A DNA stretch of 64,000 bases from Wenxinia marina DSM 24838 (lineage in GTDB: Bacteria; Pseudomonadota; Alphaproteobacteria; Rhodobacterales; Rhodobacteraceae). Below the pieces are notes generated by a model. That model was not told the origin of the DNA and searched no databases. It worked only from the letters and a program-made list of their open reading frames with translations. Position numbers and translations under genes: made by a program. This document shows positions 30,844 through 34,257 of this stretch, piece by piece (position 1 is the first letter of the stretch; the number at the start of each line of letters is the position of its first letter). The stretch covers positions 124,001-188,000 of the forward strand of contig NZ_KB902310.1 of assembly GCF_000379485.1 (NCBI RefSeq), in the 5' to 3' direction.

Positions 30844-31248
30844 ATGTCCGACACCGACAGCCTGATCCAGAGCGCCCGCACGATCCGCGAGCGCGCCTAT
30901 GTGCCCTATTCCAACTTCAAGGTCGGCGCCGCCATCCGCGCCGCCTCGGGCCGGGTCTACCAGGGCGTCAACGTCGAGAACGTGGCCTACCCCGAGGGCA
31001 CCTGCGCCGAGGCCGGCGCCATCGCAGCGATGGTCGCGGGCGGCGACACGGCGATCGCGGAGGTGGCGGTGATCGCGGATTCCCCCCTGCCGGTGAGCCC
31101 CTGCGGCGGCTGCCGGCAGAAGTTGGCGGAGTTCGGGGCGGGCGACGTGCCGGTAACACTCGCCACGCTGGACGGCGGACGGCTGGCGACGACGCTGGGC
31201 GAGCTGCTGCCGGGCGCCTTCGACAAGGGCTACATGGAGCGGGCCTGA
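30844..31248 (+). CDS. cdd: Cytidine deaminase
   Basis: 134 residues, the size of the tetrameric zinc enzyme. Zinc and catalytic motif: Cys54-Ala-Glu56 in GTCAEAGAIAAM, and Cys87/Cys90 in SPCGGCRQ. It deaminates cytidine and deoxycytidine to uridine and deoxyuridine. It is the first gene of a salvage operon; its TGA overlaps the deoA ATG (TGATG), so translation is coupled. Confidence 0.94.
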   Translation: MSDTDSLIQSARTIRERAYVPYSNFKVGAAIRAASGRVYQGVNVENVAYPEGTCAEAGAIAAMVAGGDTAIAEVAVIADSPLPVSPCGGCRQKLAEFGAGDVPVTLATLDGGRLATTLGELLPGAFDKGYMERA

Positions 31249-32552
31249 TGGGCGCCCGCGCCGTCAACGCCCGGCTGCGCCGGGGCGACCCGGTCGATCC
31301 GGACGAGCTGCGCGCCTTCGCGAAGGGGCTGGCCGATGGGTCTGTTTCGGACGCGCAGGCCGGCGCGTTCGCGATGGGCGTCTGCCTCCGGGGCCTCGGG
31401 GAAGAGGGCCGGGTGATCCTGACCGAGGCGATGCGGGATTCGGGCGATGTCCTGCGGTGGGACCTGCCGGGGCCGGTGATCGACAAGCACTCCACCGGCG
31501 GCCTCGGCGACTGTGTGTCGCTGGTGCTGGCGCCGGCGCTGGCGGCCTGCGGGGCCTTTGTCCCGATGATCTCGGGCCGCGGCCTCGGTCACACCGGCGG
31601 GACGCTGGACAAGATGGAGGCGATCCCCGGCGTCAGCGCGCAGATTTCCGAGGAGAAGCTGCGGCAGGTCGTGGGGGAGGTCGGCTGCGCCGTCGTCGGC
31701 GCGACGGGCCGGATCGCGCCGGCGGACCGGCGGCTCTACGCCGTGCGCGACGTGACGGGGACGGTGGAGTCGGTGGATCTCATCACCGCCTCGATCCTGT
31801 CCAAGAAGCTCGCCGCGGGGCTGGAGGCGCTGGTCCTCGACGTGAAATGCGGCTCGGGCGCGTTCATGAAGAGCGGGGACGAGGCGCTGGCGCTGGCGCG
31901 CTCGCTGGTGACGACGGCGAACGGGGCGGGCTGCCGGACAGCCGCGCTCATCACCGACATGGACGAGCCGCTCGCGCCGGCGCTGGGCAACGCGCTGGAG
32001 GTGGGGATCTCGATGGAGGTGTTGTCGGGCAACCGGGACGCGGCGCCGCGGCTGCACGACCTGACCGTGGCGCTGGCCGCCCGCGCGCTGGCGCTGACCG
32101 GCGAGGACGAGGACGCGGCGGCGGCGCGGGTGTCGGACGCCATCGCCTCGGGCGCGGCGATGGAGCGGTTCGCGCGGATGGTCGCGCTGCTGGGCGGGCC
32201 GCCGGACATGGACGCGGACTGGCGGGCGCATCTGAAGCGCGCGCCGGTGGTGGGCGACGTGGTGGCGCCCGCGGACGGCGTGCTGACGGCCTGGGACGGC
32301 GAGGCGCTCGGCCTGGCCGTGGTCGCGATGGGCGGCGGACGGCAGGTGGAGACGGACCGCATCGACCCGGCGGTCGGTCTTTCGGACGTGCGGCCTCTGG
32401 GGACGCGCGTCGCGCGGGGCGAGCCGGTGGCGACGGCCCACGCCGCCGACGAGGCGAGCGCCGAGGCGGCGGCGCAGGCGGTGCAGCGGGCGCTGACGCT
32501 GGGTGAGGGGTTCGCCGGGCCGGACCTCGTGATCGGGCGGGTGGAGCCGTGA
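31248..32552 (+). CDS. deoA: Thymidine phosphorylase
   Basis: 434 residues. Signature SGRGLGHTGGTLDKMEAIPG around 105-124, DKHSTGGLGDCVSLVLAPA (phosphate site), SILSKKLAAGLEALVLDVKCG, and the C-terminal alpha/beta domain. It cleaves thymidine or deoxyuridine with phosphate to the base and 2-deoxyribose-1-phosphate, which deoB then converts. Translationally coupled to cdd. The next gene, deoB, does not start for 490 bp, an unusual gap filled by a duplicated repeat. Confidence 0.95.
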   Translation: MGARAVNARLRRGDPVDPDELRAFAKGLADGSVSDAQAGAFAMGVCLRGLGEEGRVILTEAMRDSGDVLRWDLPGPVIDKHSTGGLGDCVSLVLAPALAACGAFVPMISGRGLGHTGGTLDKMEAIPGVSAQISEEKLRQVVGEVGCAVVGATGRIAPADRRLYAVRDVTGTVESVDLITASILSKKLAAGLEALVLDVKCGSGAFMKSGDEALALARSLVTTANGAGCRTAALITDMDEPLAPALGNALEVGISMEVLSGNRDAAPRLHDLTVALAARALALTGEDEDAAAARVSDAIASGAAMERFARMVALLGGPPDMDADWRAHLKRAPVVGDVVAPADGVLTAWDGEALGLAVVAMGGGRQVETDRIDPAVGLSDVRPLGTRVARGEPVATAHAADEASAEAAAQAVQRALTLGEGFAGPDLVIGRVEP

Positions 32553-32594
32553 GGACCACCCCGTCCGCAATCCGGGAGGCGCCACCAGAGGGTA

Positions 32595-32747
32595 GCGGAT
32601 GGCCGCGGACAGCCGCTCCTGTCCCCTCGACCTGGCACTTTATCCATCCTCCCCGCATGACGGCCATGTCGCGCAAACCGCTGGCGAAGCGGCTGGCCGG
32701 GGGGCGGCCAGCCGCTGCCCGGGCCACTTGCGCGGCTGATTCCGGGC
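32595..32747. repeat. deoA-deoB intergenic direct repeat, copy 1
   Basis: 153 bp within the gene-free 32553-33042 stretch. It has a conserved 5' block (GCGGATGGCCGCGGACAGCC onward, 32595 to about 32641, containing CGACCTGGCACTTTAT), a variable middle of ~40 bp, then a 42-bp block (32683-32724) identical in copy 2. The second block contains a perfect 12-bp stem hairpin, AGCGGCTGGCCG (32688-32699) / five G / CGGCCAGCCGCT (32705-32716). No convincing start codon, ribosome site and frame combination is conserved. Confidence 0.8.
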
Positions 32748-32813
32748 TGGTCGGAGGGGTGAGGGAGCGCGGCGGAGAACCGTTCTTGCTGACCGTGCAA
32801 CAACGAGAAGGCC

Positions 32814-32966
32814 GCGGATGGCCGCGGACAGCCGCTCCTGCCCCGTCGACCTGGCACTTTATTCCTCAACACCGCCCGATGCCCGTGTCCCGCTCCACCG
32901 CCGGCGAAGCGGCTGGCCGGGGGGCGGCCAGCCGCTGCCCGGGCGGCTTGCGCCGCTGTTCCGGGC
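32814..32966. repeat. deoA-deoB intergenic direct repeat, copy 2
   Basis: 153 bp, offset 219 bp from copy 1. The first 27 bases and the 42-bp block (32903-32944) are identical to copy 1, and the end (CTTGCG-CGCTG-TTCCGGGC) is close. The middle differs almost completely. The same 12-bp hairpin recurs at 32908-32936. The remaining ~75 bp before deoB contain its GGGAGAG ribosome site and nothing else recognisable. Confidence 0.8.
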
Positions 32967-33042
32967 GGGAGATCGGGGCTGACGGCAGCGCCCCTTCCAC
33001 GACGAGCCGGATCGAGCCCCCTGCCGGCCGGGAGAGACCTTG

Positions 33043-34257
33043 ATGAGCCGCGCCTTCCTAGTCGTCCTCGACAGCGCCGGCATCGGCGGCGCGCCCGACG
33101 CGGACGCCTTCTTCAACGGCGACACCCCCGACACCGGCGCCAACACGATCGGCCACATCGCCGAGGTCTGCGCCGCCGGGCGGGCAGAGGACGGCCGCTC
33201 CGGCCCGCTGCAGGTGCCCGTCCTCGCCTCCCTCGGCCTCGGCGCCGCGCTGGAGGCCGCGTCCGGCATGACGCCGCCTCCGGGCCTGGACGGTCCCGTC
33301 ACCGGCGCCTGGGCCGCCGCGACCGAGGTGTCGAAGGGCAAGGACACGCCGTCGGGCCACTGGGAACTCGCGGGCGTGCCGGTGCCGTGGGACTGGCACT
33401 ACTTCCCCAAGGCCGATCCCTGCTTCGACGACGACCTCGTGGCCGAGGTCTGCCGCCTCGCGGGAACGGACGGCATCCTCGGCAACCGCCACGCCTCCGG
33501 CACGCTGATCATCGAGGAGGAGGGCGCGCGCCACATCGAGACGGGCTGGCCGATCTGCTACACCTCGGTCGACAGCGTCTTCCAGATCGCCGCGCACGAG
33601 GAGACGTTCGGGCTGGGTCGCCTGCTGAAGCTGTGCGCCGACCTCGCCCCGCGGTTGCACGCAATGAAGGTCGGCCGCGTCATCGCGCGGCCGTTCGTGG
33701 GCACCCCCGAAGACGGGTTCGCCCGGACGAAGAACCGCAAGGACTACGCCATCGCGCCGCCCGCCCCGACGCTCTGCGACTGGGCCCACGCCGCCGGGCG
33801 GCCGGTCCACGCGGTCGGCAAGATCGGCGACATCTTCTCGATGCGGGGCATCGACGACGTGGTGAAGGGTTCGGACGCCGACCTGATGGAGGCGCTGGGC
33901 GCGCTGGTCGACGGGGCCGAGGACGGCGCGCTCGTCTTCGCCAACTTCGTGGAGTTCGACAGCGTCCACGGCCACCGCCGCGACGTCTCGGGCTACGCCC
34001 GGGCGCTGGAATGGGTGGATGCCGAGCTCGGCCTGCTGATCCCGCGACTGCGGCCCGGCGACCTGCTGGTGGTCACCGCCGACCACGGCAACGACCCCAC
34101 ATGGACCGGCACCGACCACACGCGCGAGCGGGTGCCGGTGCTGATGCAGGGCGTGGGGCAGGGGGCGCACGGGCTGATCGCCTTCGCCGACGTCGCCGCC
34201 ACCGTCGCGGCGCATCTGGGACTGGACGAGACGGGGCCGGGAAGGAGCGTTCTGTGA
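33043..34257 (+). CDS. deoB: Phosphopentomutase
   Basis: 404 residues of the alkaline phosphatase-like superfamily. N-terminal metal site [15 protein letters not shown]; phospho-acceptor region [12 protein letters not shown] (Thr); [24 protein letters not shown]; and [18 protein letters not shown] with the remaining metal ligands. It interconverts (deoxy)ribose-1-phosphate and -5-phosphate, linking DeoA and purine phosphorylase products to central metabolism. The stop overlaps the GTG of the next gene. Confidence 0.95.

Follow-up and report, generated by a model that had tools for sequence, protein, structure and literature searches.

The question raised by the deo locus of Wenxinia marina DSM 24838 is why two genes of an otherwise tight operon, deoA and deoB, are separated by a gap of 490 bp (32553–33042). 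Positions refer to the window, the whole stretch of 64,000 nucleotides that was analysed (contig NZ_KB902310.1, positions 124,001 to 188,000 of the forward strand). deoA ends at 32552 and the ATG of deoB is located at 33043, whereas the adjoining gene pairs overlap: cdd and deoA share the single base 31248, and deoB and add share four bases if add starts at GTG. A preliminary description of this DNA had noted both the gap and the overlaps of one to four bases, and both are confirmed. The gap contains two copies of a 168-bp element. The family to which it belongs is dispersed, has sharp ends and a conserved, covarying fold, favours the 3' ends of genes and avoids divergent promoters; copies are present between deoA and deoB and at 12 other tested sites where a congener has none. 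Probably (at a probability of about 0.75) the repeats are copies of a mobile element that is non-coding and non-autonomous and works in the manner of a REPIN, a doublet of repetitive extragenic palindromes (REP) that forms a hairpin.

The element in the W. marina genome

The W. marina assembly (4.18 Mb, 41 contigs) was searched at the DNA level, which gave at least 46 matches (40 of 215 candidates scored). The covariance model R1 was built from A1, an alignment of 32 copies from this genome (33 less one overlapping partial copy). With 150 candidates scored, R1 has 97 matches in the genome at E ≤ 0.01. Nine of these are weak opposite-strand echoes of full copies, which arise because the element is symmetrical, and the remainder corresponds to 88 element places. 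The weakest 12 places, with scores below 60 bits, are for the most part incomplete or doubtful copies. A threshold of E = 1e-8 is reached by 80 matches in 67 stretches of the genome; these comprise 77 distinct entries, 72 of which are full length (at least 160 nt). Short forms are also present, one of 68 bp without the middle (C37:176183–176250) and one of 91 bp (C13:60960–61050).

The boundaries of the 168-bp unit were taken from 71 genomic copies with both flanks. Information is at background before base 1, rises there and is strong by base 6. The 3' end is equally sharp, as the information per position is back at background directly after the last base. The flanks of the 71 copies show no target consensus and no target duplication (mean longest shared word 3.49, compared with 3.70 for shuffled flanks; old copies could have lost a duplication). 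The 5' and 3' ends of the element do not form an inverted repeat, since a conserved tail of about 35 nt with its own hairpin extends beyond the 3' arm.

Two other repeat arrangements were observed in this genome. At G000:C38:42703–43485 a unit of about 445 bp is duplicated, each unit with an orphan 5' block and a full element. Another palindromic repeat, of the CCCGGGTC...GACCCGGG type, is located near many copies, e.g. in the flanks L009, L020 and L024.

Both copies in the deoA–deoB gap are included in A1, so the R1 scores given for them here are not independent. A3 denotes an alignment of 62 copies from other genomes of the bacterial family. The features of the locus are:

32584–32751, plus strand: element copy 1, full length (168 bp); R1 145.9 bits, E = 3.8e-27 in the window
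32803–32970, plus strand: element copy 2, full length (168 bp); R1 135.1 bits, E = 4.8e-25
32752–32802, no strand: spacer of 51 bp between the copies, outside the direct repeats; read directly
32590–32616, plus strand: 5' palindrome of copy 1 (two arms), pairing with the 3' palindrome; RNAalifold consensus columns 7–33 of A1, covariation on A3
32689–32720, plus strand: 3' palindrome of copy 1 with the partner arms, containing the 12-bp hairpin; A1 columns 111–120 and 129–145, position of the stem
32722–32737, plus strand: 3' tail hairpin of copy 1, outside the inverted arms; A1 columns 147–162, covariation, 94.4% paired in 62 copies
31248–32552, plus strand: deoA, upstream neighbour; open reading frame (ORF) overlapping cdd, homologue beside deoB in 29 relatives
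33043–34257, plus strand: deoB, downstream neighbour; ORF used as query for relatives, found in 52 of 61 genomes

We take deoA to encode thymidine phosphorylase and deoB to encode phosphopentomutase. The two element copies are in direct orientation and, among 72 copies of the genome, each is the nearest relative of the other (difference 0.151). The repeat unit had been given as 153 bp and is corrected to 168 bp. Its outer blocks of 27 bp (32595–32621) and 42 bp (32683–32724) are indeed identical between the copies. The reported offset of 219 bp applies to the 27-bp block and to an identical block of 17 bp (32627–32643), which includes CACTTTAT, whereas the 42-bp block is offset by 220 bp. The 17-bp block is part of the middle of the element, which had been described as completely diverged over about 40 bp; the divergence is limited to approximately 32644–32682. 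The 42-bp block contains the expected hairpin with a perfect 12-bp stem and a GGGGG loop (32688–32716).

Fold and covariation

Two palindromes face each other across a spacer of about 75 nt and are followed by the 3' tail hairpin. In the RNAalifold consensus of A1, the 5' and 3' palindromes form 26 pairs with each other and the tail hairpin forms six. The copies of A3 were aligned to the model, so this alignment leans towards the structure of the model; 95.4% of its cells are paired and double changes occur at 26 of the 32 pairs. The number of double-change cells is 329 compared with 108 in shuffles, and none of 500 shuffles reaches 329, although kinship among the sequences inflates such counts. 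When the partners are slid by one to three columns, pairing drops to only 36–44%. Covariation within W. marina is smaller but present (48 double-change cells compared with 10.2 in shuffles, 77 copies). In the tail hairpin, a compensatory exchange of C-G for G-C is found in six of the 32 copies of A1 (columns 150–159). These compensatory changes support the constraint on structure suggested in the preliminary description. The long hairpin is better supported than three local hairpins. The four arms change in concert, and the element may therefore use both folds.

Conservation differs along the element. Pairwise diversity within the genome is 0.15 and 0.071 in the arms and 0.363 in the middle (spacer), where a TTTAT motif is conserved outside the stems. 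In the nine nearest pairs, which were picked on the spacer alone and thereby biased against arm conservation, the arms differ at 38 of 467 sites and the spacer at 88 of 642. The ratio of arm to spacer change is about 0.3 when all pairs are considered and about 0.5 for near pairs. We read this as a constraint mainly on lineages that keep copying and to some extent on resident copies; the data do not separate the two cleanly. Outer blocks that are kept while the middle drifts had been taken as a sign of selection on RNA structure, of a mobile or REP-like unit, or of a duplicated small RNA. The pattern is a property of the element family, and it needs no selected role between deoA and deoB.

No Rfam 15 family is found over the element at gathering score, either in the window or in the loci of 15 relatives. 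At a lax threshold, the matches over the element are weak and unconvincing, and identity with an Rfam family was rejected.

Gene context, gain and distribution

Genes were predicted with a simple codon-usage caller in 349 kb of W. marina DNA (84% coding) that contains 87 of the 88 copies. For 85 of these, any overlap with a predicted gene is at most 40 nt, and the other two overlap tiny ORFs with low scores. Gaps with an element (n = 75) comprise 28 convergent, 39 tandem and 8 divergent gaps, while element-free gaps of at least 150 bp from the same stretches (n = 59) comprise 9 convergent, 29 tandem and 21 divergent gaps (convergent versus divergent, p = 0.00015). The 45 copies in tandem gaps have median distances of 91 bp to the upstream stop and 190 bp to the next start, and their orientation is unbiased (20 ++ versus 25 --). 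Elsewhere in the bacterial family, 62 copies were considered, three of which have a missing flank; 33 of the 59 resolved copies are located between convergent genes, as called with the caller trained on W. marina. A repeat that avoids promoters and genes would be placed in this way, and so would a 3'-end element. A cobalamin riboswitch is located near one copy (L070:1171–1377).

The best 30 of the 52 deoB loci found were compared, one of them being that of W. marina. Neither R1 nor the family-wide model R2 detects an element near deoB in any of the 29 relatives, including the congener G001. Extrapolation from alignments puts the distance between deoA and deoB at −7 to +10 bp in 26 relatives and at 46, 97 and 115 bp in the other three; for the congener it is 5–8 bp. 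For a wider test of synteny, 1.2 Mb of G001 was compared with the 77 element gaps of W. marina for which both flanking genes were available. In 13 cases, the deo gap included, the same gene pair is adjacent in G001, and R1 and R2 have no match in any of these 13 gaps. Three clear copies are located elsewhere in the same 1.2 Mb. The gap of W. marina is longer by at least 131 bp in eight of the 13 cases, and the median difference of 56 control gaps is −10.5 bp. Absence in a single congener could be loss there; for deoA–deoB, 29 of 29 relatives agree on absence.

A difference at a single site is found in plasmids of Pseudosulfitobacter pseudonitzschiae. Between the PrlF-YhaV region and mazE, CP069018 carries an element on the plus strand and CP070878 an element of a different type on the minus strand. 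The elements are located at L253:5999–6167 and L254:1491–1660, and the surrounding DNA is 97.1% identical, which indicates that the gain or exchange of units takes place within short periods. Such comparisons of sequence argue that the element is mobile on evolutionary time. The mobile or REP-like unit envisaged in the preliminary description is likewise favoured by the 88 dispersed places and the element-free sites in relatives.

R1 matches were found in 90 of 295 sampled genomes of the family, W. marina included (at most nine candidates scored per genome). R2 matches 15 of 24 family genomes and none of 15 genomes from other families of the class. In a survey across the class with stricter filters and seven candidates scored each, R2 matches four of 385 genomes, all four of the same family. 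Weak partial matches of plain DNA outside the family (genomes G036 and G040, E about 2e-4) were discarded, as R2 finds nothing in either genome. Copy numbers according to R2 are at least 72 in W. marina versus 4 in the congener, and 0, 1, 2, 3, 4, 11, 18, 29, 41 and 46 in other genomes of the family. A further member, G019, has at least 149 matches (149 of 150 scored candidates), none of which overlap among the 121 listed.

The named carriers are Rhodobacterales (family names differ between taxonomies), among them metagenome-assembled genomes of Marivivens and Roseicyclus, and the Pseudosulfitobacter plasmids. BLAST gave matches in Sulfitobacter, Salipiger, Leisingera and others; in one search only one of 148 records covered more than 80% of the query. 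The element type of W. marina has no match in the plasmids and phages searched. No description of such a Rhodobacterales repeat was found in the literature, mainly open-access and judged by titles and the beginnings of abstracts. Alphaproteobacteria and five Rhodobacterales genus names are unmentioned in the main text of PMC3733652, as are Rhodobacter and Silicibacter in PMC2267715, and PMC6006769 has no match for the terms sought. As far as the literature search and Rfam show, the element is an undescribed, family-wide hairpin repeat of Rhodobacterales.

Mechanism, rival explanations and known systems

In a REPIN-like mode of spread, the two inverted palindromes and the spacer would form one long hairpin as single-stranded DNA or RNA. 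An enzyme acting in trans would recognise the folded strand, and such recognition would keep the arms while the spacer drifts. Sites occupied in W. marina but not in the congener would be gains, and insertions would survive mainly between gene 3' ends. The adjacent deo copies would result from insertion next to an existing copy or from its tandem duplication, as at several other sites. The element in the deo operon is probably a passenger.

Several observations weigh against this explanation. No REP-associated tyrosine transposase (RAYT; Y1_Tnp, PF01797) was found in the W. marina genome, with a positive E. coli control, and RAYT is no commoner with the element (11 of 90 genomes with R1 matches versus 19 of 205 without). 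The clover fold of three hairpins, possibly required by a REP-type enzyme, covaries less than the long hairpin; it is 89.0% paired and its further pair types number 39 compared with 38.2 in shuffles. The fold energy is ordinary for the composition (z −0.30 for copy 1 as RNA, z −1.04 for copy 2 as DNA). As both copies fold little better than shuffled sequence, the case for the element rests on comparison and not on energy. The strand clustering expected of a replication-linked mover is found only in G019 (p 0.015–0.020; 121 of 149 matches), and strands are not clustered in W. marina (p 0.70 and 0.88) or G010 (p 0.20 and 0.18; 29 of 40 matches). Strand and GC skew are not significantly related in G019 (p 0.77) or G010 (19 of 29, p 0.14). 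Shallow near pairs keep the arms better than the spacer (21 of 363 versus 55 of 503 sites changed), which hints at constraint after insertion. In five of the 13 syntenic cases the gap of G001 is similar or longer, so length is uninformative there. Furthermore, no exact strain-level empty site was found at the few sites searched, including the Pseudosulfitobacter plasmids, and the insertion reaction is unseen.

Candidate movers were compared in the eight genomes with at least 18 copies. Y1/RAYT is present in one of them (G016), and no element match was found around the two best Y1_Tnp genes (loci L153 and L154). IS110 transposase is present in only four of the eight and reverse transcriptase in three, one of these below the family cut-off, with none in W. 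marina. Y2 transposase is present in one, its sensitivity being unproven with 0 of 14 control genomes matched. IS110, reverse transcriptase and Y2 transposase were each rejected as common mover, and none of the four, Y1 included, can be the common mover unless the enzyme has since been lost or the drafts lack it. A bias of replication strand, suggested by a partial listing, was not upheld in later tests. It is possible, though doubtful, that none of the known hairpin movers tested is involved and that the element spreads in the form of a folded single strand by an unrecognised mobilising enzyme or by a host route of replication or repair that copies self-folding DNA.

Recurrent neighbours were sought among 261 flanking proteins. 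Of the 17 clusters of at least two, judged by visual inspection with no family search, only one is transposase-like; it consists of two IS110 end fragments of W. marina beside the copies C1:341–463 and C7:123672–123842. IS110 transposase fragments are located at eight contig ends of this genome, e.g. C1:1–144, C8:119495–119638 and C35:1–144, and those of C1 and C7 have an element copy nearby; the draft probably breaks at copies of an IS110 element. In two plasmids, NZ_CP054603 (L256:1522–2818) and NZ_CP085162 (L258:1501–2797), an IS110 gene follows an element that is broken at the same point of the tail hairpin. Judged from these junctions, an IS110 element may use the tail of the repeat as a target.

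The gene context would also suit a 3'-end element that serves the host. In this case each copy would be a stable hairpin in the transcript, terminating or protecting mRNA where genes are convergent or in tandem, and selection would retain it for this use. The medians in tandem gaps (91 and 190 bp), the enrichment of convergent gaps and the convergent position of 33 of 59 copies family-wide agree with such a role, as does the stronger conservation of the arms relative to the spacer, which is seen in near pairs too. However, all 13 testable sites are element-free in the congener and the number of copies per genome ranges from 0 to more than 120, so these sites do not need the element. Additionally, the hairpins are followed by no T-run (read directly), the orientation in tandem gaps is unbiased (20 ++ versus 25 --) and the fold energy is ordinary, which makes a function of this kind unlikely.

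An ordinary miniature inverted-repeat transposable element (MITE), derived by deletion from a DDE insertion sequence whose transposase moves it, would explain a short, dispersed unit with long inverted arms and sites without it in relatives. Such an origin is improbable in view of true ends that are not inverted repeats, the tail of about 35 nt outside the arms and the lack of a target duplication (3.49 versus 3.70); moreover, 349 kb of W. marina DNA contains no insertion sequence with the same ends and, save two 5' blocks in one duplicated array, no orphan half that might derive from a longer parent. That the deo copies are each other's nearest relatives (0.151) would fit a neutral local duplication, or the proposed duplication of a small RNA confined to the deo operon. 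Both are refuted by the 88 places in the genome and the 90 of 295 genomes of the family, and are hardly credible. A small RNA specific to this operon is further at odds with a locus that is element-free in 29 of 29 relatives and almost gapless in 26. The search of the genome and its relatives and the covariance model had been set beforehand, and the prospect of blocks that occur nowhere else and lack covariation clearly fails.

If the REPIN-like explanation is correct, Rhodobacterales, a large and much-sequenced group, would gain their own REPIN-like population together with a covariance model that extends across genera. A REPIN-like architecture would be separated from RAYT, its supposed driver, and the question of the mover would become testable in a new group. 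The element also accounts for a long intergenic gap in this tightly packed operon, and probably for further such gaps.

The element shares a conserved covarying fold with the structured RNAs of Rfam and differs from them in that no Rfam family matches it. Bacterial MITEs are likewise short, dispersed and non-coding with inverted arms, but the true ends of the present element lack terminal inverted repeats and a target duplication. PMC3116915 describes REPINs as pairs of inverted REPs around a spacer that show compensatory changes, have two possible folds and occur in clusters, with RAYT proposed as the mover. Compared with that account, the element has conserved inverted palindromes, a more variable spacer, the capacity to form a hairpin, compensatory changes, and a long-hairpin and a clover fold. 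It is also extragenic, dispersed, present in many copies and in clusters, with non-autonomous spread.

In contrast to REPINs, the W. marina genome has no RAYT, a third (tail) hairpin is located outside the arms, and the arms differ widely between genera. A GTAG/CGTC tag beside the palindrome is described for REPs in the accessible part of PMC8266576. No such tag is conserved at the palindromes in A1 or A3, and GTAG occurs only in the spacer of some W. marina copies. As RAYT and the tag are both missing and the tail hairpin is additional, the element is called REPIN-like and not a REPIN. Bacterial interspersed mosaic elements and REPs, as far as the same part of PMC8266576 describes them, are similar in their intergenic location, inverted palindromes and tandem copies, whereas the present unit is a single block of about 168 bp. 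According to the available text of PMC8450116, ISPpu9 of the IS110 family is located at one position within Pseudomonas REPs. The IS110 genes beside the broken tail of the element in two plasmids and the fragments near two W. marina copies are a further likeness to this REP/ISPpu9 pair.
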